Virus record (IMG/VR): IMGVR_UViG_3300025467_000007
Coordinates: 62,001 to 126,000 of that record
Length of the DNA: 64,000 bases
Source: a virus
Strand: one strand, 5' to 3'
In this document: piece after piece, positions 2,647 through 63,690 of the stretch
Layout: every line of letters begins with the position of its first letter
How positions within the stretch are numbered: position 1 is the first letter of the stretch
Notes under the pieces: generated by a model
The model's input: only the letters and a program-made list of their open reading frames with translations
What the model was told of the DNA's origin: nothing
The model's database searches: none
Position numbers and translations under genes: made by a program

Positions 2647-3102
2647 TTACTCCTCATTGATTACAAATACTGCAACACCAGCTTCAGCAAACATTGCTAT
2701 GGACTTTTTCCATGAATCGTTCCAATGTGGCCTAGCTTCGATGCACTGTTTTGATACTACTACTTTCTTAATCCCTACTTGGATGATACCCTTTGCACAC
2801 TCTGAGCATGCTGGTAAACCATGAATGAATATGGTTGAACCGTCTAATGATACGCCTGAGTATGTAGCATTATATATTGCATTCATCTCAGCATGTACAA
2901 TTAATGATAGCTTTAGTTCTCTATCACTTAATCTTTTATTTGAATCAGCTATACCTCTTGGAAAACCATTATAGCCTTGAGATAAGATCTGACCCTTTGA
3001 TCCAACTACCACTGCACCAACTTGTGTGTTAGGGTCTTTTGACCATGTAGCTACTTCTTTTGCAAGCTTGAGGTATCGCTTATACCATTTATTGATCGCC
3101 AT
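2647..3102 (-). CDS. cd: Deoxycytidylate (dCMP) deaminase
   Basis: A zinc-dependent deaminase of the dCMP/ComEB family that converts dCMP to dUMP. The HAE catalytic motif (VHAEMNAIYN) and the PCxxC zinc site (LPACSECAKG) are both present. The chosen start is the ATG at 3102, giving MAINKWYKRY and 151 aa; an upstream start at 3132 would add 10 residues and overlap the neighbour more deeply. The gene overlaps the 3' end of the dCMP hydroxymethylase gene, so two enzymes competing for dCMP are co-transcribed. Confidence 0.93.
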   Translation of the reverse strand: MAINKWYKRYLKLAKEVATWSKDPNTQVGAVVVGSKGQILSQGYNGFPRGIADSNKRLSDRELKLSLIVHAEMNAIYNATYSGVSLDGSTIFIHGLPACSECAKGIIQVGIKKVVVSKQCIEARPHWNDSWKKSIAMFAEAGVAVFVINEE

Positions 3103-3772
3103 CGATGAACTTAAAATGCCTTTCATAAACATGAAGAGATGCTACGTTCCAATAGATATCACCAATTTCAAGTGTTTCTAACCATTCGTTTCTTAAGTCT
3201 ATTACTAGCTGTTCCAATACATGTTTTTGCCATGCATAATCGTTCTTATAACCAAACACGGCATCATTTGATCTCATATAGACCAATGCGTTTACTTTAT
3301 TGTTCCTGATAAGATACTGCACTGCATTAGTACACATAAAGTCTGACATACCACCTTTGTTATAATCATCATGCATAGTAGGACGATTATAGATCATTGT
3401 AGCTCTACGAGATAGTGGGTTCTTTATGAGTTCATTAAGTACGTTCTCATATTGATCTCCATTCTGTTGCGAATAGATGCACCACCCATAGTTTGAGTTG
3501 ATATATCCATTAGGGTTTGCAACCATTTTCCAGATTTCTGGTGGTCCACCTGGGATGTCATTAACGTTAAGTGACATTGACTTATACCATTCTAATTCTC
3601 TTTCTACATAGTCATGATTGACTGTACCAAAGATTGATGGTTCATTAGCAAAGAATGCTGCGTTTATGATCTCAACTGTCTTGACACCAGTCTTATCAGT
3701 AACGAAGTCGCCCATCTTTAACTTCTCTTTAAAGATGTTTCTGATATTACTTACACCATAGACTGTACTCAT
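3089..3772 (-). CDS. 42: dCMP hydroxymethylase-type thymidylate synthase homologue (T4 gp42-like)
   Basis: A 227-residue thymidylate-synthase-fold enzyme. Aligned by eye to bacterial ThyA, the nucleophile is Cys147 (SDFMCTNA), and exactly 22 positions span from it to the RS of YMRSND, as in ThyA. The invariant substrate-selecting Asn (Asn177 of E. coli ThyA) is replaced by Asp178 in GYKND. T4 dCMP hydroxymethylase has Cys148 and Asp179 in the same places, so the predicted product is hydroxymethyl-dCMP rather than dTMP. It lies in one operon with dCMP deaminase and a MazG-type pyrophosphatase. The exact product is inferred from the signature residue. Confidence 0.85.
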   Translation of the reverse strand: MSTVYGVSNIRNIFKEKLKMGDFVTDKTGVKTVEIINAAFFANEPSIFGTVNHDYVERELEWYKSMSLNVNDIPGGPPEIWKMVANPNGYINSNYGWCIYSQQNGDQYENVLNELIKNPLSRRATMIYNRPTMHDDYNKGGMSDFMCTNAVQYLIRNNKVNALVYMRSNDAVFGYKNDYAWQKHVLEQLVIDLRNEWLETLEIGDIYWNVASLHVYERHFKFIDGDQ

Positions 3773-4165: not shown

Positions 4166-4573
4166 TTATTTTTTAACCCAACCTCTACCATTCCAATCAT
4201 AGATCCCATTCAATTCATAGTCATCTGATTCTTTGTCATTGATCCATATATAGACACGAGTAGGATGCGTCCTCCATGACTCTTGTATACGTTCTGCACA
4301 CCTATCTAATATGTATGGTACATTGCCTATATGTTGTGTAACTTTAACCTCAATAGGCGTATCATCGGGTTCAAATAGATCTTTATATGGTCTAGTATCA
4401 TCGATGTATCCTATCGATAGTAGGTATACCTCTGCTGCTTGACCGTATAAGCATGCTTCAAGGATCTGTTGGTAGTTTCTACCAGTCTTGTCTTTAACAA
4501 CTATCTTACTAGCCTCTGCCTCAGCTCGAGCTAATAATAATTGCTGGTCTAGTTTTGATCTATTAAATTTCAA
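4166..4573 (-). CDS. Putative PD-(D/E)XK nuclease-fold protein
   Basis: A 135-residue protein not recognised by family. The pattern GQAAEVYLLSIGY, then an acidic stretch, then PIEVKVTQHIG resembles the E...D...(D/E)xK core of PD-(D/E)XK nucleases, with EVK at about residues 76-78. The C-terminus ends IYDWNGRGWVKK. It starts in an ATGA overlap with the MazG-like gene and is followed by a promoter, so it is the last gene of its transcript segment. A nuclease role is an inference from a weak motif. Confidence 0.45.
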   Translation of the reverse strand: MKFNRSKLDQQLLLARAEAEASKIVVKDKTGRNYQQILEACLYGQAAEVYLLSIGYIDDTRPYKDLFEPDDTPIEVKVTQHIGNVPYILDRCAERIQESWRTHPTRVYIWINDKESDDYELNGIYDWNGRGWVKK

Positions 4574-4971
4574 TCGTAGATCTTTTCAAATAATCCGATG
4601 TTACCAACATGAGTAGGTGCAACCCAGCCTTCAGGCTTAATAAGATCCGGTAAACCTAGTGGGTTTGGTCTTGATGCTTTAATACCGACCTCCTTAGTAA
4701 TATTTGCTGTATACACTTTATCCCATGCCATATTAGCATGTACATCAAATAAATCCAATGTGCCTATAGCAAACACAGATAAGTCGATCAATGCATCCAC
4801 CGCATCATCACCGTTCTTTGCTGCTTTAAGTTCATCAAGTTCTTCTTGTAAACACTTGATGCGGAACTCAAGGAACTCTGCTAACTTATTAGCATCCATC
4901 TTTTGCACTACTTCTTTTACACCAAACTTATGGTGCATCTCACTCATATCTTTTGCCCAGTTGTAACTCAT
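4570..4971 (-). CDS. MazG-like nucleotide pyrophosphohydrolase
   Basis: A 133-residue all-alpha NTP pyrophosphatase. The EELDELKAAKNGDDAVDALID segment gives the ExxE and D...D metal-binding signature of the MazG/dimeric dUTPase superfamily, followed by NMAWDKVYTANITK. T4 gp56, the dCTPase that removes dCTP in hmC phages, belongs to this superfamily. Given the dCMP hydroxymethylase in the same operon, a dCTP/dUTP pyrophosphatase role is plausible but not proven. The stop overlaps the next start (ATGA). Confidence 0.8.
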   Translation of the reverse strand: MSYNWAKDMSEMHHKFGVKEVVQKMDANKLAEFLEFRIKCLQEELDELKAAKNGDDAVDALIDLSVFAIGTLDLFDVHANMAWDKVYTANITKEVGIKASRPNPLGLPDLIKPEGWVAPTHVGNIGLFEKIYD

Positions 4972-13991: not shown

Positions 13992-14007
13992 AAATCAATA
14001 ACTTATG
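13992..14007 (+). repeat. Copy of the AAATCAATAACTTATG intergenic element
   Basis: AAATCAATAACTTATG overlapping the stop codon of the SGNH-like gene. On the minus strand it reads CATAAGTTATTGATTTATAT, as at 29583 and 30001. The same sequence lies in opposite orientation at 27400. Confidence 0.65.
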
Positions 14008-15058
14008 AAAAGAATGATTCTAGGCCTCCGGGGGCGGACTTGGGTGTGTTCCAATACGAACCAGTCCAATATGGGTATGATGCCCGTGATAGATGGACTG
14101 ACTTTGGCTTCTCCATGTATTCGAAGTCAAGCTCACCCTTAGAGTTAATCATGTTGTCTACCCATAAGTATACCGGGAACTTGTCTTGAGACATGATCTC
14201 TTCTTTGAATATCTGACGAAGGTTGTCACGTTCCTTCTGTGTTCCGGTAAATGGTACACCTTTATAGTAACCAGTCTTTGGTAATACTCGTGACTCGTTC
14301 TCAATAGGTAATAGTTCCCACATAGTCACCTCCGCATCATACATATCTGAGATACGTTGACACTCTTGGATATACTTTGCTGCGAGTTCTTTAGTTGACT
14401 GAACCGGATCCGGAAACCTCATGAGATGGTGGCGGATATCGATGTTACCAAAGTAAACTTCTATTTCGTTATATTTTCCTTCTGGTATGAATGTGTCAAA
14501 GCCTTGCTTGATTGCACCATGTAGTGTCTTAAATGGTGTAGACACGTTCATCCATTCTGGTCGATACATACAAATAGCATGAGAATCCCCAATAGCAATC
14601 TTTGGATATCTCTTAGCAAGGTTAGGATCATAAGTGATAGCACGATCTTGTAGATCTTTGAGGTTGCCCCAATTTACATCATGCCATAAACGATTTATCT
14701 TCTTACCATCTTTGATTGCTTTCTCTACACGCGGATACAACATACCATAGTAATCAGGCATATCGATCACTAATGACCATACTGCACCTCTAAAGTTTGA
14801 TAGCGCGATGATGTACTCGATGTTCGAATAGTTCTCCAACCCACCGAATAAGTTGAGTGATCCACCCCAGTCGTTACCATGATAGAGAGCAACCGTATCA
14901 TATGCATTGTAATCATGTATCTGGTTACCTGTCATGTGTACAGTTACATCCATACCTGCAGTCATTAGTTGATCTGCATAGATGATACCTTGCGCAGCTT
15001 TGTGTGAATGGATCTTGTTAGAAACCGGCGAGAGTGGCTGTGTTAGTAGTAACTTCAT
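14003..15058 (-). CDS. SGNH-like protein of the putative DNA hypermodification cluster
   Basis: 351 residues from the ATG at 15058 (MKLLLTQPLSPVSNKIHSHK), preceded by GGAAAAAAG. The N-terminal 130 residues look alpha/beta, with a possible nucleotide-sugar fold. A central IAIGDSHAICMY and a later YFGNIDIRHH look like the GDS block and the G..D..H block of SGNH hydrolases or acyltransferases. A candidate C-terminal catalytic His was not assigned. It overlaps the PLP enzyme gene by 41 bases and is the last gene of the 14-18.6 kb cluster. A role in decorating modified bases is inferred from context only. Confidence 0.55.
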   Translation of the reverse strand: MKLLLTQPLSPVSNKIHSHKAAQGIIYADQLMTAGMDVTVHMTGNQIHDYNAYDTVALYHGNDWGGSLNLFGGLENYSNIEYIIALSNFRGAVWSLVIDMPDYYGMLYPRVEKAIKDGKKINRLWHDVNWGNLKDLQDRAITYDPNLAKRYPKIAIGDSHAICMYRPEWMNVSTPFKTLHGAIKQGFDTFIPEGKYNEIEVYFGNIDIRHHLMRFPDPVQSTKELAAKYIQECQRISDMYDAEVTMWELLPIENESRVLPKTGYYKGVPFTGTQKERDNLRQIFKEEIMSQDKFPVYLWVDNMINSKGELDFEYMEKPKSVHLSRASYPYWTGSYWNTPKSAPGGLESFFS

Positions 15059-15917
15059 CTTTTTTCCATTTTCTATATGAATTTGTTGTGTCAATAATAC
15101 TATGATCTTTTAATATTGGGTCTGTGCCAACGTTCCACATCAATATATCTCTACCCGTATTTTTAGGTATGTACTTCCAAACCTTTGCATCGTATGTACG
15201 TACTGTTGGGAATGGTGGTAAGTTCTCGTATTTTTCTGGTGTTGCAAACTCTGCAGGTTCTGATATAAACTCTGCGCGACCTAACTCACCTTCTTGTAAG
15301 TTACGGGCTACTGCAACTGAATGGAACTTGGCATTTGGCCATGCTATCTGTAATGCTCGTGATAGTACACCAGTACTTATAGCTACATAAACTTCTTCAG
15401 GTTCTTTGATCTTACTTGCAGCGTATACGATACCTGCTGTTGCTAGTTCATGCTTCAAACCAAGTGGGATGAATGCATAACCGTTTTCTTCCGCGTATTT
15501 TTTAGCAGCGAGGTTTAGGTTAGGCATCGCTGCTATCCGTTCAAAGTGTACCTCTGCTCCACGTTCAATACAACATGCCTGATGATGTGATATCTGCTTG
15601 GATGATGGCATGAATAGTACAATCTTTTTACCATGTATCTTTGCTACATCACATAGAGACACACCAGCAAGCCCGACTCTTGGCTGTACATAAACTAATG
15701 TATCGTTTGGGATCTTGGCTGCAAGCAGATCACCAGCTCTTGTCTTTGTACCAACGATGAGATCATCTCGAACAACTCGTACACCTTCATGCATCACTGT
15801 AACAGGATCCGGATTGTACGGTGTCCATCCTTCACATAGAGATAGGTAATACTCTTTGGCTTGTGGCCATGTCATCATACCTACTTCTTTGTTTATACCC
15901 TCAACGAACGTTCTCAT
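15018..15917 (-). CDS. PLP-dependent enzyme, fold type II (ACC deaminase/tryptophan synthase beta-like)
   Basis: A 299-residue protein. GTKTRAGD places a candidate PLP-binding Lys at residue 58, matching the GNKTRK block of ACC-deaminase-type enzymes. IHGKKIVLFMPSSKQ, GLKHELATAGIVYAASK and AISTGVLSRALQIAWP fit the remaining fold-type-II landmarks, including the phosphate-binding loop. Substrate unknown. PLP enzymes take part in known thymidine hypermodification pathways, where they act on amino-acid-derived side chains. GAGGAAAGT before the ATG at 15917 lies inside a homing-endonuclease scar (15914-16024). Confidence 0.75.
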   Translation of the reverse strand: MRTFVEGINKEVGMMTWPQAKEYYLSLCEGWTPYNPDPVTVMHEGVRVVRDDLIVGTKTRAGDLLAAKIPNDTLVYVQPRVGLAGVSLCDVAKIHGKKIVLFMPSSKQISHHQACCIERGAEVHFERIAAMPNLNLAAKKYAEENGYAFIPLGLKHELATAGIVYAASKIKEPEEVYVAISTGVLSRALQIAWPNAKFHSVAVARNLQEGELGRAEFISEPAEFATPEKYENLPPFPTVRTYDAKVWKYIPKNTGRDILMWNVGTDPILKDHSIIDTTNSYRKWKKDEVTTNTATLAGF

Positions 15918-16024
15918 ACTTTCCTCAATTTACAATTATCAAAATGCCATCTTTTCATAGCAGGTAAACTACCATTTAAACCACAATGGGGGCATACTAT
16001 GGTTTGTTGAGCTCCTGTAGGCAT
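15914..16024 (-). pseudogene. Homing-endonuclease C-terminal zinc-finger remnant
   Basis: A 36-codon open frame between the transferase-like gene and the PLP gene. It encodes TIVCPHCGLNGSLPAMKRWH followed by FDNCKLRKV and stops in an ATGA overlap with the PLP start. The CPHC...RWHFxNCK pattern matches the C-terminus of the intact GIY-YIG endonuclease at 63 kb. No nuclease domain remains. The remnant carries the PLP gene's ribosome-binding site. It might alternatively be a free-standing 36-residue zinc-finger peptide. Confidence 0.75.
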
Positions 16025-16028
16025 CCAT

Positions 16029-17045
16029 TCATGCTGGGAAGACTTTTTTTCCGTCTGGTCGTTTGGCCAAATCAAAACTATTAGGAAATATCCAATTATA
16101 TGGTATACGCTTGGTAGGAGATTTTACTCCATGATTGATAGCAATGTGTTTCCAAAATAGACATGACTTGTCTTCTATGTTCAACCATTTTTGCTCTCTC
16201 ATAGGATTGCGAGGATCATTTACTAATATATTCATTTGCTCAAGCCACATGTGTGCATGCTTGTTCTTAGGTACGAACTGACCATCTGGATCTATCTCAT
16301 ATTGTACCTTACCATTGAGGTTTACACCAAAGATCTGATGCATGCCATCAAAGTGTCCTGTACCACCAAACAATACTGACTCAGGATCTACGATATCAGG
16401 ATATGCCATAGCCATGTATCGTGCAGTGTTCTTGCATGGATACAGTGGACTTCTAAAGTTTTGTTTCTCTTTGAAATACTTCTCAAGTAGTTTAGCATAC
16501 TCCATCATGGTGAATGGTCGTCCTAACCTATTACGATGTTTATCTAAAAACTCCCACATCTCCTCAGCTGCCTTCTTAGGACCATCGATCAGCCAATCTT
16601 TAACTAACGTGTTCTTAGGATAGTAGATTTGGAATAGATCATTACGTGCATGTCGGTGTTCTTTAAAGTGTTCTCTTAGATTCTCTGGACCTTGATACAT
16701 CAACCGTGTTAGTGTACCCCAATGTTCGTTACTAAATGAGAACGTTAGTGTATACCACAATCTTAACTTAGGATCTGTGACCTTCTTCATGATATCACAG
16801 AACGGATGTTCATGCCAATGGAGTCTATGCGAAAAGATCTGGTAATCTTCTGCTAACAACTGATCTCGACGTAGATCAAACTCTTGGCAAAACTCAAAAA
16901 ACTTATCAAGACGTTTTTCAAGTGGCCAATCTTTCATCCATGATTCAGTAGGTTTGCCATCTTTTAATACTACAGGACTTGTACCCTTATAGGTAATATT
17001 CTTATACTCGATACCAGATATGAATTGAGCTAGAGTGTTTTGCAT
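16029..17045 (-). CDS. Putative amino acid:DNA transferase-like protein A
   Basis: A 338-residue, mostly helical protein. RPFTMMEYAKLLEKYF, CKNTARYMAMAYPD and VLFGGTGHFDGMHQIFGVN resemble the family predicted in phage base-hypermodification operons as glutamyl/putrescinyl-thymine transferases, now called amino acid:DNA transferases. Charged conserved positions (HEHPFCD, RHARNDLF) could be catalytic. It is adjacent to, and overlaps, a second gene with a related pattern (17030-18196). Recognition is by eye, with no structural or database check. Confidence 0.6.
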   Translation of the reverse strand: MQNTLAQFISGIEYKNITYKGTSPVVLKDGKPTESWMKDWPLEKRLDKFFEFCQEFDLRRDQLLAEDYQIFSHRLHWHEHPFCDIMKKVTDPKLRLWYTLTFSFSNEHWGTLTRLMYQGPENLREHFKEHRHARNDLFQIYYPKNTLVKDWLIDGPKKAAEEMWEFLDKHRNRLGRPFTMMEYAKLLEKYFKEKQNFRSPLYPCKNTARYMAMAYPDIVDPESVLFGGTGHFDGMHQIFGVNLNGKVQYEIDPDGQFVPKNKHAHMWLEQMNILVNDPRNPMREQKWLNIEDKSCLFWKHIAINHGVKSPTKRIPYNWIFPNSFDLAKRPDGKKVFPA

Positions 17046-18196
17046 AGTTCCTTATATTGATCCACTGTCATATTATGTATCTTCAAGACATAATCGTCTG
17101 AAGGATGAGATGTTAATCTATTGAATGAATCTATTAGTTTAAGATCAAGCATTGCTTTCTGTCTACCGAATGGATGATCTAAGATCTTACATGATGAGAA
17201 TATAACATCACGATCTATATGGTTATAGTCTGATCCAGGTCGTACATAGTTTTCTACCCAACGGATGAAGTCACAGCACACGTCTTCTGCATTATATGGG
17301 TATGCACCAGTCTCTACATAGATCCGTTCCATAACTTGATCGAGGAACTCTTCTTGCTTCATCTTAGTTAATGGTTTTGCAAGATATGAGATACACTCTA
17401 CTGCATTTGTACCGTAGTAGAACGGTGATGTCTTATCAACGTACTGTGGGTACCAATCAGCCACGTCTGCAACTACTGCAGCATACTGGAAGTGGTACTG
17501 TCTTAAGTTATTCTTAACGTTCCAATCTAACATGAACGAACCGATCTCTCTTAGTGATCTCTGTCCACCAGATTCTAAAAACTCTGCTAGTTCTCTTGCT
17601 AATCGTGGTGCATACTCTGATAGGTAATAATCTCCACCACGTTTATATCTTGATCCTGCAGGTGGTTTAGGAAATGCTGGGAATTGGTATCCAACAGAAG
17701 TGTAGAAGGAGTATGGATAGTTGTTCACCATCTCGACCATGTCCTCAATAGTCTTACAGTTATGTAGCGAGAACAATAAGGTATTGTGGTATCCACTAGG
17801 TTTCGTACTGTAATTAATTGCAGAACCACATACACGATGGAGGATGAATATGTACAGCCATTCGGGCAGTTTAAAGTCGGAATGTTTTCCTGTCCAGTTA
17901 TGTGCTACAGTATCTCGTTGATGTGTGATCTTACCTGCTTCCATCTTTTTCCAATATGGATGCTGATCCGTCCAACCATAAAAGCAATCATTAACGATCT
18001 GAGAGAAACCTGCATACTTACGTTCGACCACATCATACAATTCTACATGATGCAGTAGATCATCATTCATGTTTGACTCTACATGTGATATCATGCCATA
18101 AGGTGGTGTAAGAGATACATTACACTTCTCTTGCTGATCCTTTGCAAGGTTAAAGTATCTTATGTACTCATCATAGTATTGTGTTGTTTCAATCAA
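17030..18196 (-). CDS. Putative amino acid:DNA transferase-like protein B
   Basis: A 388-residue protein. The block PEWLYIFILHRVCGSAINY, then GYHNTLLF, then SFYTSVGYQFPAFPKPP resembles the helical core of phage proteins predicted to transfer amino acids or polyamines onto hydroxymethyl-pyrimidines in DNA. It overlaps protein A by 16 bases and the UDG-like gene by 4, so all three are probably co-translated. Target base and donor are unknown. Two such proteins side by side could form a heteromeric or sequential system. Confidence 0.6.
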   Translation of the reverse strand: MIETTQYYDEYIRYFNLAKDQQEKCNVSLTPPYGMISHVESNMNDDLLHHVELYDVVERKYAGFSQIVNDCFYGWTDQHPYWKKMEAGKITHQRDTVAHNWTGKHSDFKLPEWLYIFILHRVCGSAINYSTKPSGYHNTLLFSLHNCKTIEDMVEMVNNYPYSFYTSVGYQFPAFPKPPAGSRYKRGGDYYLSEYAPRLARELAEFLESGGQRSLREIGSFMLDWNVKNNLRQYHFQYAAVVADVADWYPQYVDKTSPFYYGTNAVECISYLAKPLTKMKQEEFLDQVMERIYVETGAYPYNAEDVCCDFIRWVENYVRPGSDYNHIDRDVIFSSCKILDHPFGRQKAMLDLKLIDSFNRLTSHPSDDYVLKIHNMTVDQYKELCKTL

Positions 18197-18606
18197 TATA
18201 AACCAACCTCAGTTAAAAATGTTTGTAGTCTAAGCAGCATACCAACTTCATAGGCTTTACTATTTAGGTTCCTATTTCGTGGAGACGGATGATCAATCTT
18301 ATAATGTGGTATGTCATACTTATCACATACTTTTGATACAAATCCACCAAGTGCAATCACTACTTTACCTTGTGTCTCTGTTAGTAATGCATCCACGTCT
18401 ACATCAGACATCTTATAAGAGTTTATCTTATTAGGTATCACATTATGAAACGACCATTCATATAGACCTACTGTGTCCATCCAATCCTTCAGACGTGCAA
18501 ATGTCCCATTCTTAAACGGTGTAGTTTTAGATGAGGGACATTGGCCTAAGACTATAACTTCGTCAGAAGGCCTATGATATGGAAGAAAATCCGTCACTGA
18601 TTTCAT
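18193..18606 (-). CDS. Uracil-DNA-glycosylase-superfamily protein
   Basis: 137 residues from the ATG at 18606 (MKSVTDFLPYHRPSDEV). VLGQCPSS (about 20-26) matches the first active-site loop, and HPSPRNRN (about 106-113) the HPSP loop of the UDG superfamily. The protein is shorter than cellular UDGs. In this operon it could recognise or process modified bases rather than uracil; that is inferred. The ATG is only 6 bases after the -10 box of its promoter, so its mRNA would be essentially leaderless. Confidence 0.8.
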   Translation of the reverse strand: MKSVTDFLPYHRPSDEVIVLGQCPSSKTTPFKNGTFARLKDWMDTVGLYEWSFHNVIPNKINSYKMSDVDVDALLTETQGKVVIALGGFVSKVCDKYDIPHYKIDHPSPRNRNLNSKAYEVGMLLRLQTFLTEVGLY

Positions 18607-18612
18607 AATATA

Positions 18613-18641
18613 ATTATACCCCAAAGGGTATTAAAAGTACA
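18613..18641 (-). promoter_or_regulatory. Early-type promoter of the hypermodification cluster
   Basis: TGTACT (18641-18636), 17-base spacer ending TTTGGGG, TATAAT (18618-18613). The stretch from the -10 box to the ATG (TATAATTATAT, one base, ATG) is almost identical to that at gene 43, again leaving only 6 bases. Confidence 0.75.
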
Positions 18642-19815: not shown

Positions 19816-19941
19816 CTACCTAAATTTATTTATAATACGAAGGAATACTTTTTTAAGTTTTTGTTTACGAGTTAATGGTGCAGGAGGACTACCGATACAG
19901 CATACTCTGTCCCATTCTCGTTGAGTATAATTAGGCTGCAT
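19816..19941 (-). CDS. Possible small gene, 41 aa
   Basis: An open frame whose ATG at 19941 overlaps the last codons of the omega-like gene. It encodes MQPNYTQREWDRVCCIGSPP and then a basic tail ending IINKFR. No clear ribosome-binding site is visible, but the frame runs through most of an otherwise empty gap. It may be translationally coupled to the omega-like gene or be spurious. Confidence 0.4.
   Translation of the reverse strand: MQPNYTQREWDRVCCIGSPPAPLTRKQKLKKVFLRIINKFR
19827..19834 (-). promoter_or_regulatory. Late-promoter-like TATAAATA
   Basis: A perfect T4 late box on the minus strand upstream of hsp20. The hairpin at 19782-19802 lies between them, so read-through would be needed to express hsp20 from here. 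Confidence 0.4.
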
Positions 19942-50706: not shown

Positions 50707-50731
50707 TATTTATAACTATAAGGTATTTATA
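50707..50731 (-). promoter_or_regulatory. Two tandem late boxes upstream of gp13
   Basis: TATAAATA occurs at 50714-50707 and again at 50731-50724, the latter inside the last codons of the APS-kinase-like gene. Confidence 0.7.
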
Positions 50732-51120
50732 ATGGAGTGTATAGAGTAATCATGATCCTGGATACGAAGGTTATATTTAGTAGGTGGTTCAAATATCTTA
50801 TCAGTGTCTTCATACTTTGATATGACTACTGTATCCATCCAGATAATAAAGTCAGCATCAAATATGTCTCTACTTTCTTGTAATGGAGCTATAAAATCTA
50901 CGATAGTATAGTCATCATCAACATTAGCTAAGTCGGCTAGTCTTTTGGCTTGTCTAATTCGTCCTTCATATGAGAAGTCCCAGTCTTGATATAGAGACCT
51001 TATCTTATCAGCATTTAACCATGTGACAGACTTTCCTTCTTGTTTAAGACTAGCCTCAAGTCTACCTGCAAGAGTAGTCTTACCAGATCCAGGAAGACCC
51101 ATGATTAATATTTTAAACAT
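50716..51120 (-). CDS. APS-kinase-like P-loop kinase
   Basis: A 134-residue protein. P-loop GLPGSGKTTLAGRLE near residues 8-22, then LNADKIRSLYQDWDFSYEGR, as in adenylylsulfate (APS) kinases, and FIAPLQESRDIF. It is shorter than cellular CysC (about 200 aa), ending shortly after the substrate region. It overlaps a sulfotransferase gene by 8 bases, so PAPS supply for that enzyme is plausible. Confidence 0.75.
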   Translation of the reverse strand: MFKILIMGLPGSGKTTLAGRLEASLKQEGKSVTWLNADKIRSLYQDWDFSYEGRIRQAKRLADLANVDDDYTIVDFIAPLQESRDIFDADFIIWMDTVVISKYEDTDKIFEPPTKYNLRIQDHDYSIHSIINTL

Positions 51121-51901
51121 ATTGTTTTTCTATCTCAACGAACCTATTGTATAGCTCTTCACCAAGAACTTCCTTTGCAGGCTTTGATATCTTTTCTAGT
51201 TTAGGTCTAATAGTATGTAAACCTTCAAATCCCCAAGCTAATAAGTCATCATCGTTGGTGTCATTCTGGATATTATTAAAGTCGTACTCATGTTTTGGTA
51301 ACTCTAAGAATTGTTCTATACGAGCGATCTCATGTTTAGGATCGTTAACTATATCATCGTACTTAACAACTATGATCTGATCTGGAACATCTTTCTTGAT
51401 CTGTTGAGCACCTTCCATACAATCTTTAACCATATTAAACCACATCTCTGCCATCCGATTATCATCAGTTGCTGGATAACCTTTTAATATAAGGTTCTTA
51501 TCAAAGTCTGATTTAGTTTGGTTTTTAATGATAGTTAACCAGCTTGCCATGATACTAGGAAGATCACGTTCCACTACAATAACCTTGATCTTTTCCCCGA
51601 ATAAAGCATTGACTGTAGGCATGTTTTTAGCCCATCCACGACCTTTATCTATGATGATTGGTTCTGACCTATGCTGCCAAAATGCCGGTAATATCGCCTT
51701 AGTTAAGTTTCTTGCTTGTTCTTCAAAGTAGTTAGCTTTAACTGTTGGATCCTCTCTCCACGCTTCTTGCATCTTTACTGCTACGTTAAGCATAGGAGAA
51801 GTAGGAGTTACGTATATCGCTGGGTTTTGGTTAAGTATTGAAGATAAGACTGTTGAGCCAGATCTTGGCAATCCCGATAGAAAGTGTAATTTTTGTTTCA
51901 T
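51113..51901 (-). CDS. PAPS-dependent sulfotransferase
   Basis: A 262-residue protein. The 5'-phosphosulfate loop FLSGLPRSGSTVLSSILNQN (about 7-26) and the 3'-phosphate region VIVVERDLPSIMASWL are classic sulfotransferase motifs. Substrate unknown; a sugar or protein of the virion or host surface is possible. Paired with the APS-kinase-like gene. TATAAATA lies upstream at 51952-51945. Confidence 0.85.
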   Translation of the reverse strand: MKQKLHFLSGLPRSGSTVLSSILNQNPAIYVTPTSPMLNVAVKMQEAWREDPTVKANYFEEQARNLTKAILPAFWQHRSEPIIIDKGRGWAKNMPTVNALFGEKIKVIVVERDLPSIMASWLTIIKNQTKSDFDKNLILKGYPATDDNRMAEMWFNMVKDCMEGAQQIKKDVPDQIIVVKYDDIVNDPKHEIARIEQFLELPKHEYDFNNIQNDTNDDDLLAWGFEGLHTIRPKLEKISKPAKEVLGEELYNRFVEIEKQYV

Positions 51902-52728
51902 AATATAGACTTGATAGATGAGTGGATTAACTCTCTTTGTTCTGTATTTATAGATGCATTCCTGTATATGTCTATGAGCTGCGTGCTTATCTTCTTATAC
52001 CAATCATCATCACGTTTATGATGGTCGACAAATAAACATGCAGCTGGTATATATTTGTCGATCTGATTACTATTTTTATAATGATAGAGAAGATACCAAA
52101 GGTTCCATGTATTAGTCGGGTTATCTCGATACTCGTCTTCCATCATCTTAACGTATAGTTCAGGTCTTTCTTTCTTTTGAAAGTCTTGATCATGTACTAA
52201 GAATATCTCATCAGCATATAGTTCATTCTCATTACGATCTTTATGTATCCAACTTAGGTGTTCATAGATGGGTTGGTTCCATGTGTAATCAGCTCTAAGG
52301 TGGATCTTGTTAGTAGCTATAAAGTTTGGTGGTCCGACACGAACAGTCTTAGAGTAGATGTCTAGTCTATCACACGCTATGTTTGTTATAGTAGGTACAG
52401 CAGCTATGATGATATCCATCTGTTCACGTGTATTGATAGAGAAGTACTCATCAAGGTCTGGAGATAAACACCAAGTAACCTCTTCAGGCACCATAGCAAG
52501 GTTATGTCTACGAGCAACATCAAACCTCCATGGAGTAAACGTCTTTTGTTCGATGATTAAGTTTGGATCTTTCTTAGCATACTCTTGTAGTAGTTCCCAT
52601 GAACCATCAGTAGAACCAGTATCTAACAGGACTCTATAATCATAAGGCTGAGTATAGTACATCCATTTTTCAATGAACTTCTTTTCGTTCTTAAGTATAG
52701 TATATGCGGCTGTCTTAAACTTTTTCAT
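51898..52728 (-). CDS. Glycosyltransferase family 2-like
   Basis: 276 residues from the ATG at 52728 (MKKFKTAAYTILKNEKKFI). RVLLDTGSTDGSWELLQEYA is the nucleotide-binding start of a GT-A fold, and CLSPDLDEYFSINTREQMDI carries the DxD-type metal site. Sequences like WNQPIYEHLSW follow. Likely transfers a sugar to a virion or host glycan. The stop overlaps the sulfotransferase start (ATGA). Confidence 0.78.
   Translation of the reverse strand: MKKFKTAAYTILKNEKKFIEKWMYYTQPYDYRVLLDTGSTDGSWELLQEYAKKDPNLIIEQKTFTPWRFDVARRHNLAMVPEEVTWCLSPDLDEYFSINTREQMDIIIAAVPTITNIACDRLDIYSKTVRVGPPNFIATNKIHLRADYTWNQPIYEHLSWIHKDRNENELYADEIFLVHDQDFQKKERPELYVKMMEDEYRDNPTNTWNLWYLLYHYKNSNQIDKYIPAACLFVDHHKRDDDWYKKISTQLIDIYRNASINTEQRELIHSSIKSIL
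51945..51952 (-). promoter_or_regulatory. Candidate late promoter TATAAATA
   Basis: Perfect late box inside the 3' end of the glycosyltransferase gene, 44 bases before the sulfotransferase start. Confidence 0.45.
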
Positions 52729-53092
52729 TACCAAATTTTTCTCTTGCATGATCAATTAATGAAGGATGATGACCCTTACGACAATCAAACTGTCGACATG
52801 ATATTGGTCTATAACTATATATAGAACATTTCCCATCTATAAACATACCACAACCGCCCTCTTTCTTACGATACAGTGTGACTATAGGCCCGACTTGTGA
52901 GTTGTCAGCTCTATGCTGGTCAGTGGGGTTAATGAAGCTTAAAGGGTATAATCCAGAAGCTATCTCTTCAGGTGTTAAGTATGGTGTTAACTTCTCACAA
53001 CACAGTGAGCATGTACCACATGGCACATCTTCTATAGGCTCATCAGAACCTACTGAAGTTAAGTTGATGTTTATGATCTTATAACTATGCAT
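52715..53092 (-). CDS. YkgJ-type cysteine cluster protein
   Basis: A 125-residue protein. CGTCSLCCEKLTPYLTPEEI, GGCGMFIDGKCSIYSYRP and CRQFDCRKGHHP give the Cys pattern of YkgJ-family Zn/Fe-binding proteins. Function of the family is unclear; in phages it often lies beside 2OG oxygenases, as here. It overlaps the downstream glycosyltransferase gene by 14 bases. Confidence 0.78.
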   Translation of the reverse strand: MHSYKIININLTSVGSDEPIEDVPCGTCSLCCEKLTPYLTPEEIASGLYPLSFINPTDQHRADNSQVGPIVTLYRKKEGGCGMFIDGKCSIYSYRPISCRQFDCRKGHHPSLIDHAREKFGNEKV

Positions 53093-60514: not shown

Positions 60515-61717
60515 TTAACTTGATGGGTATAGTTTTCCTGCTTCGTAGAAGAATACGGCTGCTGTATACACTCCACCCGCCACCTGTTTCCAGTTAGTAC
60601 CGCCAGCAATAGTCTGGATAGGACTGGATTTACTGACTAGAGTGTTGTCGCCTAGGTAACCTTGGGCGTTATTTCCCCAGATCCATAGTGTACCATCGGT
60701 CTTGATAGCTGCTGTAGCACCAAGATTAGCCACCTGTTTCCAGTTAGTACCACCAGCAACAGTTTGCACAGGACTGGATTTATCGACTACAGTATTGTCA
60801 CCTAGTTGACCAACGATGTTATATCCCCAGATCCATAGTGTACCGTCCGTCTTGATAGCTGCTATATTATAGCCTCCACCTGCCAACTGTTTCCAGTTAG
60901 TACCACTAGCAACAGTCTGGACAGGACTGGATTTATTGACTATAGTGTTGTCACCTAATTGGCCATTGGAGTTCTGTCCCCAGGTCCATAGTGTACCATC
61001 TGTCTTGATAGCTGCTATATAAGAGATTCCACTTACCACCTGTTTCCAGTTAGTACCGCCAGCAATAGTCTGGATAGGACTAGATCTATGGGTTATACTA
61101 GTACCATCACCTAGTTGACCTTGTTGGTTCCATCCCCAGGTCCATAGTGTACCATCTGTCTTGATAGCTGCTGTATTAGTATATCCACAACCCACCTGTT
61201 TCCAGTTAGTACCACCAGCAACAGTCTGGACAGGGCTGGATTTTAGGCTTGCAGTATTGTCACCTAGTTGACCATATAAGTTATGTCCCCAGGTCCATAG
61301 TGTACCATCTGTCTTGATAGCTGCTGTATGATATTGTCCACCTGCCACCTGTTTCCAGTTAGTACCACCAGAAACAGTTTGGATAGGACTAGATCTATGG
61401 GTTATACTAGAACCATCACCTAGTGCACCATAGGTGTTACGTCCCCAGGTCCATAGCGTACCATCTGTCTTGATACATGCTATATGATAGTTTCCACCCG
61501 CCACTAGTTTCCAGTTAGTACCACCAGCAACAGTTTGCACAGGACTGGATTTATCGGCTGCATTAGTAAGTGCTGCAGTATTGTCACCTAGTTGACCATA
61601 GGTGTTACGTCCCCAGGTCCACAGTGTTCCAGTCGCAGCGTACTGGTCGATCATAGCATAGTCGGTGACGAATAGCTGTTCTAGGTCGCCTTGACGGCTT
61701 TGGAATTGTCCGGCCAT
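60515..61717 (-). CDS. RCC1-type seven-bladed propeller protein 3 (putative adhesin)
   Basis: A 400-residue paralogue (MAGQFQSRQGDLEQLFVTDY). Seven repeats of the same core, mostly LWTWGxNxxGQLGDN, with loop variants ASLKSSPVQT, SITHRSSPIQT and VDKSSPVQT. TAGGAGCATAGG precedes the ATG. The late box at 61841-61848 is about 120 bases upstream, so all three propellers are probably late genes. Confidence 0.88.
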   Translation of the reverse strand: MAGQFQSRQGDLEQLFVTDYAMIDQYAATGTLWTWGRNTYGQLGDNTAALTNAADKSSPVQTVAGGTNWKLVAGGNYHIACIKTDGTLWTWGRNTYGALGDGSSITHRSSPIQTVSGGTNWKQVAGGQYHTAAIKTDGTLWTWGHNLYGQLGDNTASLKSSPVQTVAGGTNWKQVGCGYTNTAAIKTDGTLWTWGWNQQGQLGDGTSITHRSSPIQTIAGGTNWKQVVSGISYIAAIKTDGTLWTWGQNSNGQLGDNTIVNKSSPVQTVASGTNWKQLAGGGYNIAAIKTDGTLWIWGYNIVGQLGDNTVVDKSSPVQTVAGGTNWKQVANLGATAAIKTDGTLWIWGNNAQGYLGDNTLVSKSSPIQTIAGGTNWKQVAGGVYTAAVFFYEAGKLYPSS

Positions 61718-61859: not shown

Positions 61860-63017
61860 CTAGTACTTGCGACCAGGATACTTCTTAAGTGCATAGTCCA
61901 TGTCTGTACGACCAGGATTCTCTTCGTACCAGCCTTTACCAGTATGGATATTAAGCACGGCTTGGAAGTATTCCTCATACATCTTAGCCACATGATCTAA
62001 TGAGAAGTTATTGATAGCCCAATCTCTACAGTCTTGAGGTTTGATACGATCGATGTTCTTGAGAGCCCATACGAACTCTTCAAACGTACGGCATCTGTAA
62101 CCTGTAACACCATGGATATTGTTTTCTGTGAATGAACCCCAGTCAGTGGTGATGGTTGGTGTACCAGAGAATAAGTTCTCGATCTGTACTCCACCAAATG
62201 GCTCAACGTACATAGAAGCGACCATAGAGACTTTAGCTTTTGACATAAGCTCTCTGCGTTTCTCTACGTCTGCATAACCGATGAACTCTACATGAGATGG
62301 GATCTCTTTATAACCACATGCTTGTAGGTTATTCTGACCTGCAACCTTAAGTTTCATGCCAGCTTTCTCTGTAGCCTGGATAGCTATATGGATACCTTTA
62401 CCTTCATACACTCGACCTAAGAATAAGCAGTAGTCTTCCTTAGTTTCAGGTGCAAAAGTAAAGTCATCTGGGTTGAAATAATTTGGTATTACTGTGTCAT
62501 AGAAGTTGTTTTTACATGTACCGACAGCCTCAAGACCATAGTATGCATGCATGATAGCATATGATTCAAAGATCTTAAACCTTGCCCAGTGTCCACCAGC
62601 GTATCCGATACCGGGTTCTACGCAAATTAAGTCTGGATGTGCATCACACACTGGACGAGTACCTGATCCCCAGAATGGTAAAATAAAATCGTGTTTTTGT
62701 TTTCTAAGTCCTACTTCTCGAATCGCGTTTTTGTAAAATGTCTGATAAGCATGGTCGTTTGTGGCAAACTTGAAGAAGTTCTTACGCCAATCATAAGAAC
62801 CATATGCTATCTCTAGATCTTTATTAGTAGTAACTGTAACGTGTTCAGTGGCTTCAACAATTGAATCTTCATGACCATAATGAATCACTTCATGACCGCG
62901 TTCGGTCATCATCTTACAGAACTTTAGAACTTTCATTGTATATGCACAGGCCACATATTCTGGAGAAGTTACTGTATGAGGGAGGCCTAGTGCATGGAAT
63001 CTAAATTTATTACTCAT
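61860..63017 (-). CDS. GT4/GT1-type glycosyltransferase
   Basis: 385 residues from the ATG at 63017 (MSNKFRFHALGLPHTVTSPE). GT-B features include YCLFLGRVYEGKGIHIAIQA and the donor-site stretch MYVEPFGGVQIENLFSGTPT. Sugar donor and acceptor are unknown. Its ribosome-binding site (GGTGATAACA) lies within the last codons of a GIY-YIG endonuclease gene. Confidence 0.85.
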   Translation of the reverse strand: MSNKFRFHALGLPHTVTSPEYVACAYTMKVLKFCKMMTERGHEVIHYGHEDSIVEATEHVTVTTNKDLEIAYGSYDWRKNFFKFATNDHAYQTFYKNAIREVGLRKQKHDFILPFWGSGTRPVCDAHPDLICVEPGIGYAGGHWARFKIFESYAIMHAYYGLEAVGTCKNNFYDTVIPNYFNPDDFTFAPETKEDYCLFLGRVYEGKGIHIAIQATEKAGMKLKVAGQNNLQACGYKEIPSHVEFIGYADVEKRRELMSKAKVSMVASMYVEPFGGVQIENLFSGTPTITTDWGSFTENNIHGVTGYRCRTFEEFVWALKNIDRIKPQDCRDWAINNFSLDHVAKMYEEYFQAVLNIHTGKGWYEENPGRTDMDYALKKYPGRKY

Positions 63018-63690
63018 TGTTATCACCTTTTAATTTACAATTATTGAAATGCCATCTATACATGTTATTTGAACCGCCTAACATGTTACAGTGGGGACAT
63101 ACTATTTTTGTTTTAGGTTTTCTCATGGCAATTTTTGCTTCTTCTGTCACTATCTTGCCTTTATGAGAATCACTAATCTTTTTCTTGGTTTCTTCTGAAT
63201 GCATTATTACTTGTTTACTTCGTGCTGATTTTATTTTTGATTTAGTTTCTTCTGTTCTTTTTCTATCTTTTAATTTTGATTTAGTTTCTTCTTTACATGG
63301 TACACCTTTATTCCATGCAGCAAATCCTTTTCTTGCTTGACTCATTCTTTGTTTTTCTTCATCTGTTCTTGGAATACCTTTATTCCATGGTGTAATACCA
63401 GGTATAGCACCATCTAATCCATTCTCTATCTTAAGATTAGCCCATTTGTCAGAGTTAACTATGTCCATCTCTTCAGATATTAGTGTTGCAAACTCAACCA
63501 ATTTACTTTTATCTGTAAATGGTTCAGAAACCCAAATCGTCTTAACATGATATAAACCATGTTTATTGATATGTCTAACCCAGTGTTTACCAGATCCTTG
63601 ATACTTATATGGATCAGATTTAGTAGTCTTACCAAGATATCTCATCCCAGTAATACTATGTTCTTTTATATAAAGGTAAGTTGGTTTCAT
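63010..63690 (-). CDS. GIY-YIG homing endonuclease with NUMOD3 repeats and zinc finger
   Basis: A 226-residue protein. YLYIKEHSITGMRYLGKTTK and YKYQGSGKHWVRHINKHG form the GIY-YIG-type nuclease core. NUMOD3 repeats follow (GIPRTDEEKQRMSQARKGF and SEETKKKISDSHKGKIV), and a C-terminal finger CPHCNMLGGS...RWHFNNCK. This is the intact relative of the scars at 15.9 and 40.0 kb. It is inserted between a methyltransferase and a glycosyltransferase gene. Confidence 0.88.
   Translation of the reverse strand: MKPTYLYIKEHSITGMRYLGKTTKSDPYKYQGSGKHWVRHINKHGLYHVKTIWVSEPFTDKSKLVEFATLISEEMDIVNSDKWANLKIENGLDGAIPGITPWNKGIPRTDEEKQRMSQARKGFAAWNKGVPCKEETKSKLKDRKRTEETKSKIKSARSKQVIMHSEETKKKISDSHKGKIVTEEAKIAMRKPKTKIVCPHCNMLGGSNNMYRWHFNNCKLKGDNNE

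Follow-up and report, generated by a model that had tools for sequence, protein, structure and literature searches.

Phage DNA is known to carry 5-hydroxymethylcytosine (hmC) decorated with sugars (glucose, gentiobiose and arabinose), and to our knowledge hypermodification with amino-acid-derived groups has been found mainly on thymine. The best reference point on the thymine side is the thymidine hypermodification of Pseudomonas phage M6, Salmonella phage ViI and Delftia phage PhiW-14; M6 makes 5-(2-aminoethyl)deoxyuridine, and the 5-hydroxymethyldeoxyuridine (5-hmdU) DNA kinase family PF18748 acts in the thymidine route (PMC6449724). On the cytosine side, hmC decorated with carbamoyl (PMC8670742) and 5-carboxymethylcytosine carrying glycine as an amide (PMC12783734) have already been described, and the Aeromonas phages 44RR, 31 and 25 have gene 42 and no glucosyltransferase (PMC2993671). 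Here we analyze a five-gene cassette (genes A to E) at 14003-18624 of a 64,000-nucleotide window, which comprises positions 62,001 to 126,000 of the T4-like viral record IMGVR_UViG_3300025467_000007 (160,126 bases) in IMG/VR. Sequence comparisons and predicted structures indicate that this cassette very probably hypermodifies hmC.

The cassette phage has in common with M6, ViI and PhiW-14 a pyridoxal phosphate (PLP) enzyme (B, corresponding to gp52), a putative uracil-DNA glycosylase (UDG)-like protein (E, resembling gp48), an amino acid:DNA transferase-type fold and a pyrimidine hydroxymethylase; it differs in that the hydroxymethylase is of the dCMP rather than the dUMP type, in having the extra protein A, and in that its genome has no PF18748 (HMUDK) kinase, no recognizable ADDT/HMUDK_hel protein and no gp53-type radical S-adenosylmethionine (SAM) enzyme. 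With hmC glucosylation in T4 (gp42 plus beta-glucosyltransferase, BGT) it shares the dCMP hydroxymethylase and a BGT-like N-terminal half of A; here, however, an SGNH domain takes the place of the donor half of the glucosyltransferase, PLP and transferase-like proteins are added, and the genome contains no T4-type alpha-glucosyltransferase. The hmC carbamoyltransferase system resembles the chemistry considered below in placing an acyl-type group on the hmC hydroxyl, but its enzyme is unrelated and has no PLP or transferase-like partners. In the CmoX/CmoY system, phage enzymes likewise attach an amino acid to a modified cytosine, but they use a carboxymethyl handle and an ATP-dependent amide ligase rather than hmC and this protein set; a C5-cytosine-methyltransferase-like gene (c22) that lies near some relatives of the cassette, and is possibly of the CmoX type, was not found in the genome studied here. 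Most likely, the cassette uses relatives of thymine-modification enzymes together with an unusual hybrid protein, A, and dispenses with the kinase of the thymine pathway. No account of these proteins as a set turned up in a search confined to a library of open-access literature, and one may exist elsewhere.

Conservation of the cassette and the modified base

The cassette is conserved and operon-like. T4-like viruses from fresh water carry it by the hundreds: the D profile matched at least 583 stretches in viral contigs, and IMG/VR protein searches yielded 50 to 80 loci for each cassette protein. Where D is flanked by 4 kb of sequence or more on each side (55 loci), it is accompanied by A at 52 loci, by B at 50, by C at 38 and by E at 18. 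All module genes are co-directional in every one of 162 non-redundant D loci, with stop-to-stop gaps mostly of about -10 to -20 nucleotides (nt). With open reading frames (ORFs) assigned by profile, the recurring gene orders are E-D-C-B-A, D-C-B-A, D-B-A, D-C-A-B and A-D-C-B, and this shuffling of order under retention of strand points to functional linkage rather than shared descent of one stretch. The cluster named in the original prediction thus proves to consist of five real minus-strand ORFs, conserved far above chance. No isolated phage carrying D/C/B was found among 50,697 phage records, and searches of sequenced phages gave no match at the DNA level and none by tblastn with C, D or E.

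The modified base is most likely hmC, as judged from the neighboring hydroxymethylases. In 79 of 164 D loci the flanking sequence retrieved includes a relative of the dCMP hydroxymethylase, and the residue at T4 position 179 is Asp in the window's own enzyme, in all 75 aligned hydroxymethylases from D loci and in all 15 from loci of a second kind (F loci, described below), in contrast to Asn in 21 of 21 M6-type sequences. The kinase of the thymidine route is missing as well: PF18748 has no match in the phage's own genome, in nine other D-type records or in three F-type records, against four of four M6-type controls; these records may be incomplete, so that the absence is strong rather than final. 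A kinase profile built here matched no D or F locus at E<1e-3, and the neighborhoods share no conserved candidate for such an enzyme. The dCMP-type residue and the lack of a recognizable hydroxymethyl-pyrimidine kinase in the window had both been predicted, and the latter extends to the whole 160-kb record; together with Asp179 in every aligned neighboring hydroxymethylase, it lends good support to the hypermodified-cytosine pathway that had been suggested, whose proposed chemistry is discussed below.

A cassette acting on hydroxymethyluracil (hmU), as in M6 and ViI, with the dCMP hydroxymethylase being incidental, would fit the presence of B and E homologues in the M6 thymidine cluster and of an encoded dCMP deaminase. 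We nevertheless give this alternative very little credence: Asp179 led us to reject hmU as the substrate, Asn being found at none of the D or F loci, and both the missing HMUDK kinase and the similarity of A to an hmC glucosyltransferase speak against it. We also considered as a base kinase the adenosine 5'-phosphosulfate (APS)-kinase-like protein at 50716-51120, and rejected it; its gene adjoins a sulfotransferase, and its score against the 5-hmdU kinase profile is barely above that of other P-loop proteins. In a separate observation, M6 gp54 (L243:16632-17249), labeled "terminase small subunit" in RefSeq, matches PF18748 (E 3.2e-18), and the RefSeq label is likely a misannotation.

Hybrid protein A and its cassette partners

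Protein A appears to be a fusion in which the half of an hmC glucosyltransferase that binds the acceptor is followed by an ester-chemistry domain. In the predicted model (predicted local distance difference test, pLDDT, of 92), residues 144-332 adopt an SGNH hydrolase fold (Z 13-14, root-mean-square deviation about 3 over about 166 residues), and Ser159 (in GDSH) and His322 are invariant in 132 of 132 sequences. The N-terminal part, at about residues 28-100, resembles the N-terminal domain of T4 BGT (hhalign 83%, E 8.5e-6): the NLFGG of A corresponds to NFFGG in BGT, and Asp99 is aligned with BGT Asp100, the catalytic base of that enzyme. Pfam T4-Gluco-transf is matched by 29 of 71 A members (best 8.6e-5), with the window's A below the curated cut-off; A, under the cut-off, is the sole PF09198 match in its own genome. 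The UDP-glucose-binding C-terminal GT-B domain is lacking, the SGNH domain standing in its stead, and a PDB sequence search with the A profile returned nothing credible. Three features sit less easily with this picture. The canonical block III Asn of GxND is replaced by Ile (GNID) and the block V Asp of DxxH by Lys, Gln or Ser, for which reason we speak of an SGNH fold and not of a classical hydrolase, and Asp99 is Asp in just 110 of 132 sequences.

C and D are new divergent families that, on profile and model evidence, resemble the amino acid:DNA transferase/HMUDK_hel group without being members of it by profile. For D (model pLDDT 90), the top BFVD match, at E 4e-47 and 66% identity, is a protein named "amino acid:DNA transferase domain-containing"; it is followed by a second protein of that name (3e-3), the SP10 5-hmdU DNA kinase (9.5e-3) and the helical domain of the PhiW-14 kinase (0.046), with few other credible matches. 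In the PDB, its model matches 8-oxoguanine helix-hairpin-helix (HhH) glycosylases at a Z of about 8, a low value for a protein made of helices. Among 96 profiles, C and D match one another best (score 39, next 27), aligning over ~125 columns (E 1.8e-4 and 1.5e-3) that reach a shared C-terminal E-D-x-x-C region, and by eye this segment lines up with the C-terminal motifs of HMUDK_hel and ADDT.

Along with that weak Z score, a number of results weigh against the assignment. The name of the top BFVD match comes from automatic annotation; the fold similarity of D to 5-hmdU-kinase proteins is modest (template modeling score 0.37-0.46, E 0.01-2); the placement of C goes through its profile homology to D; and neither protein reaches Pfam ADDT (PF18724) or HMUDK_hel (PF18723). 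None of 52 D members matched either family at E<=5, PF18724 was found in 0 of 17 records as against 3 of 3 of the M6 type, and PF18723 is not present in the phage's own genome. Direct profile comparisons of C or D with M6 ADDT, HMUDK_hel or F gave nothing above background, and neither profile picked up a credible relative among PDB sequences. Being similar in fold or profile while missing the Pfam models, C and D are best described as look-alike new families.

B is homologous to M6 gp52 over its full length (hhalign 100%, E 5.8e-56) and matches phrog_7093 (E 2.9e-37); its PLP lysine, Lys58, is invariant in 114 of 114 sequences and is aligned with the lysine of the SK motif in M6 gp52. E scores below the cut-off against PF03167 (E 0.0015, 19.1 bits against 24.3) and resembles M6 gp48 (hhalign 88%). 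The protein classes proposed in the original prediction have held, for E tentatively: a PLP fold-type II enzyme in B, by its match to gp52; a UDG-like protein in E, at a sub-threshold Pfam score and by hhalign; two adjacent transferase-like proteins, with D placed by predicted fold and C by homology to D; and an SGNH-like protein in A, whose BGT-like half was not part of that label. The structural comparison that had been suggested groups the D model with amino acid:DNA transferase proteins and the A model with SGNH proteins. B-like sequences also occur elsewhere: in Erythrobacter phage ZS04 (L412:2326-4764) as a PLP domain inside an ORF annotated as a DNA methyltransferase, and in Microcystis phage Mae-JY30 (L413) as a gene that follows two ParB-like genes.

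The same protein assignments bear on the nature of the target. The genes could instead serve the synthesis of a small molecule, or act on protein or RNA and not on phage DNA; neither C nor D is matched by Pfam, and modification of DNA by the cassette is a prediction. We regard this as improbable, given that the cassette adjoins dCMP hydroxymethylase, deaminase and replication genes, that the D fold is DNA-glycosylase-like, that B matches M6 gp52 and that A has a BGT-like half.

Alternative partners of A and the proposed chemistry

Protein A also occurs with other partners. At 63 loci (including L340, L285, L307 and L310) its partner is F, which is related to HMUDK_hel (hhalign 57-82%; in 44RR, Pfam E 9e-4) and never occurs together with D. 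A myo-inositol-1-phosphate synthase (PF01658) accompanies F in 61 of the 63 loci and D in 0 of 264; F loci further carry a small conserved protein (c16) and, in 30 of 44, an FkbM methyltransferase. Comparison of an F locus (L340) with a D locus (L100) places both gene sets at the same site, between dCMP deaminase/E on one side and the C5-methyltransferase-like gene, c11 (DUF3310-like) and gp45/gp44 on the other, and the partner labels require 5-6 changes when mapped on a tree built from 93 A sequences, at least 3-4 of these changes being forced by well-supported branches. These data suggest an inositol-decorated hmC at F loci, whose genes are exchanged for D/C/B at the same place.

The Aeromonas phages that have gene 42 and lack a glucosyltransferase extend this pattern, as all three share A. 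In 44RR (L234:4408-8388), A and F are fused into one 795-aa protein, with the HMUDK_hel-like F as its C-terminal half, beside a sodium:solute symporter (SSF), so that 44RR may import rather than make its attached group; in phage 31, A likewise lies within a 795-aa protein. In phage 25 (L235:2776-6047), A adjoins a UDP-galactopyranose mutase and a likely glycosyltransferase, and a galactofuranose decoration is possible. Neither D nor F was found in the phage 25 genome, and D was likewise not found in 44RR. A UDP-galactopyranose mutase was further seen close to A-D-C-B in L034, L039, L043 and L045. As A is kept with differing sets of partners, we infer that it is the constant enzyme on the hmC side, with the group coming from the exchangeable genes. 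A fully modular system, in which constant A is combined with an amino acid via D/C/B or with inositol via F and inositol-phosphate synthase, and in which the ester chemistry of A replaces the kinase, is a tentative proposal.

Taken as a whole, the data are probably best explained by a cytosine hypermodification cassette of T4-like phages that would work as follows. The dCMP hydroxymethylase would make hydroxymethyl-dCMP, which, by gp42 homology and Asp179, would be incorporated into DNA in place of dC. After replication, the glucosyltransferase-like half of A would bind flipped-out hmC and its SGNH half (Ser159/His322) would carry out ester chemistry at the base, either acylating the 5-hydroxymethyl group as a leaving group in place of the missing kinase or capping or editing the finished group. 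D, plus C in most phages, would then attach an amino acid to the 5-methylene carbon, in the manner of the amino acid:DNA transferases of thymidine phages, as the fold suggests. In M6, the PLP enzyme removes the carboxyl group from an amino acid that is by then bound to DNA; B would likewise act, through its PLP cofactor, on the amino acid once attached, most likely decarboxylating it to an amine. The expected product would be a 5-(aminoalkyl)- or 5-(aminoalkoxymethyl)-cytosine, shielding the DNA from nucleases. In view of the missing gp53-type radical SAM enzyme, a serine-type route to an aminoethoxymethyl group, by analogy with ViI, is one low-confidence guess. We think it probable that the added group is amino-acid-derived and consider a kinase-free route plausible, at slightly under an even chance; that A is the activator of hmC is a possibility we hold only loosely.

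A competing account, to which we give somewhat less weight, holds that hmC is indeed decorated, with A acting late as a capping or editing enzyme (an acyltransferase or esterase) and an unrecognized kinase or a host enzyme providing activation. SGNH proteins are commonly esterases or acyltransferases, A is retained across the D/C/B, F plus inositol-phosphate synthase and phage 25 contexts, and the FkbM methyltransferase of F loci is another capping-type enzyme. The phage 25 context in particular fits capping better than activation and so tells against the latter. On the other side, the half of A beside the SGNH domain resembles the hmC-binding part of T4 BGT, and the neighborhoods hold no conserved kinase candidate. 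The BGT-like half and the missing kinase thus favor A acting on hmC, and phage 25 favors capping.

Locus layout and significance

The coordinates of the cassette and of the associated nucleotide-metabolism genes are given in Table 1.

Table 1. Cassette genes and associated features, in window coordinates.
Feature	Position	Strand	Description
A	14003..15058	-	351 aa; BGT-like N-terminal part (~28-100) plus SGNH fold (144-332), both predicted
B	15018..15917	-	PLP-dependent fold-type II enzyme, M6 gp52 homologue
C-B spacer	15918..16028	.	Encodes C-terminal end of homing endonuclease (apparent scar)
C	16029..17045	-	338 aa, new D-related family; predicted DNA-acting transferase-like protein
D	17030..18196	-	388 aa; helical throughout, with a fold like that of HhH DNA glycosylases; predicted amino acid:DNA transferase
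E	18193..18606	-	137 aa, UDG-superfamily-like, M6 gp48-related; accessory
dCMP hydroxymethylase	3089..3772	-	T4 gp42 type, Asp179
dCMP deaminase	2647..3132	-	
MazG-like nucleotide pyrophosphohydrolase	4570..4971	-	Often close to cassette; possible dCTPase

The overlapping gene ends that had been predicted are found for E/D (18193-18196), D/C (17030-17045) and B/A (15018-15058), with lengths of 4 to 41 nt, but not for C and B, which lie 111 nt apart. This spacer codes for a zinc-ribbon-like C-terminal tail that matches the homing endonuclease at 63010-63690, and is apparently a scar of such an element. The most likely starts are ATG 15058 for A, rather than TTG 15094, and ATG 18606 for E, upstream of which a TTG sits within a TATAAT-like stretch. 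The single promoter proposed for the five genes found no support: the region contains 28 sigma-70-like sites against a shuffled expectation of 24.4 +/- 5.0, so that the scan gave no signal beyond chance, and the T4 late-promoter octamer TATAAATA occurs neither within the cassette nor just upstream, the closest minus-strand copy being at 19827.

Elsewhere in the window, the APS-kinase-like protein, the sulfotransferase and a family 2 glycosyltransferase are encoded in series at 50716-52755, near a neck-protein gene, and possibly sulfate a glycan. A protein of RCC1-like WTWGxNxxGQLGDN repeats at 60515-61717, close to structural genes, is a possible tail or fiber beta-propeller.

If the proposed reading is true, a transfer of amino-acid chemistry to cytosine that makes do without the known kinase would enlarge the repertoire of DNA chemistry, and the cassette would be a source of new enzymes for hmC labeling. 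The finding is also relevant to a problem raised in 2010, namely how hmC is modified in 44RR, 31 and 25, T4 relatives without a glucosyltransferase (PMC2993671).

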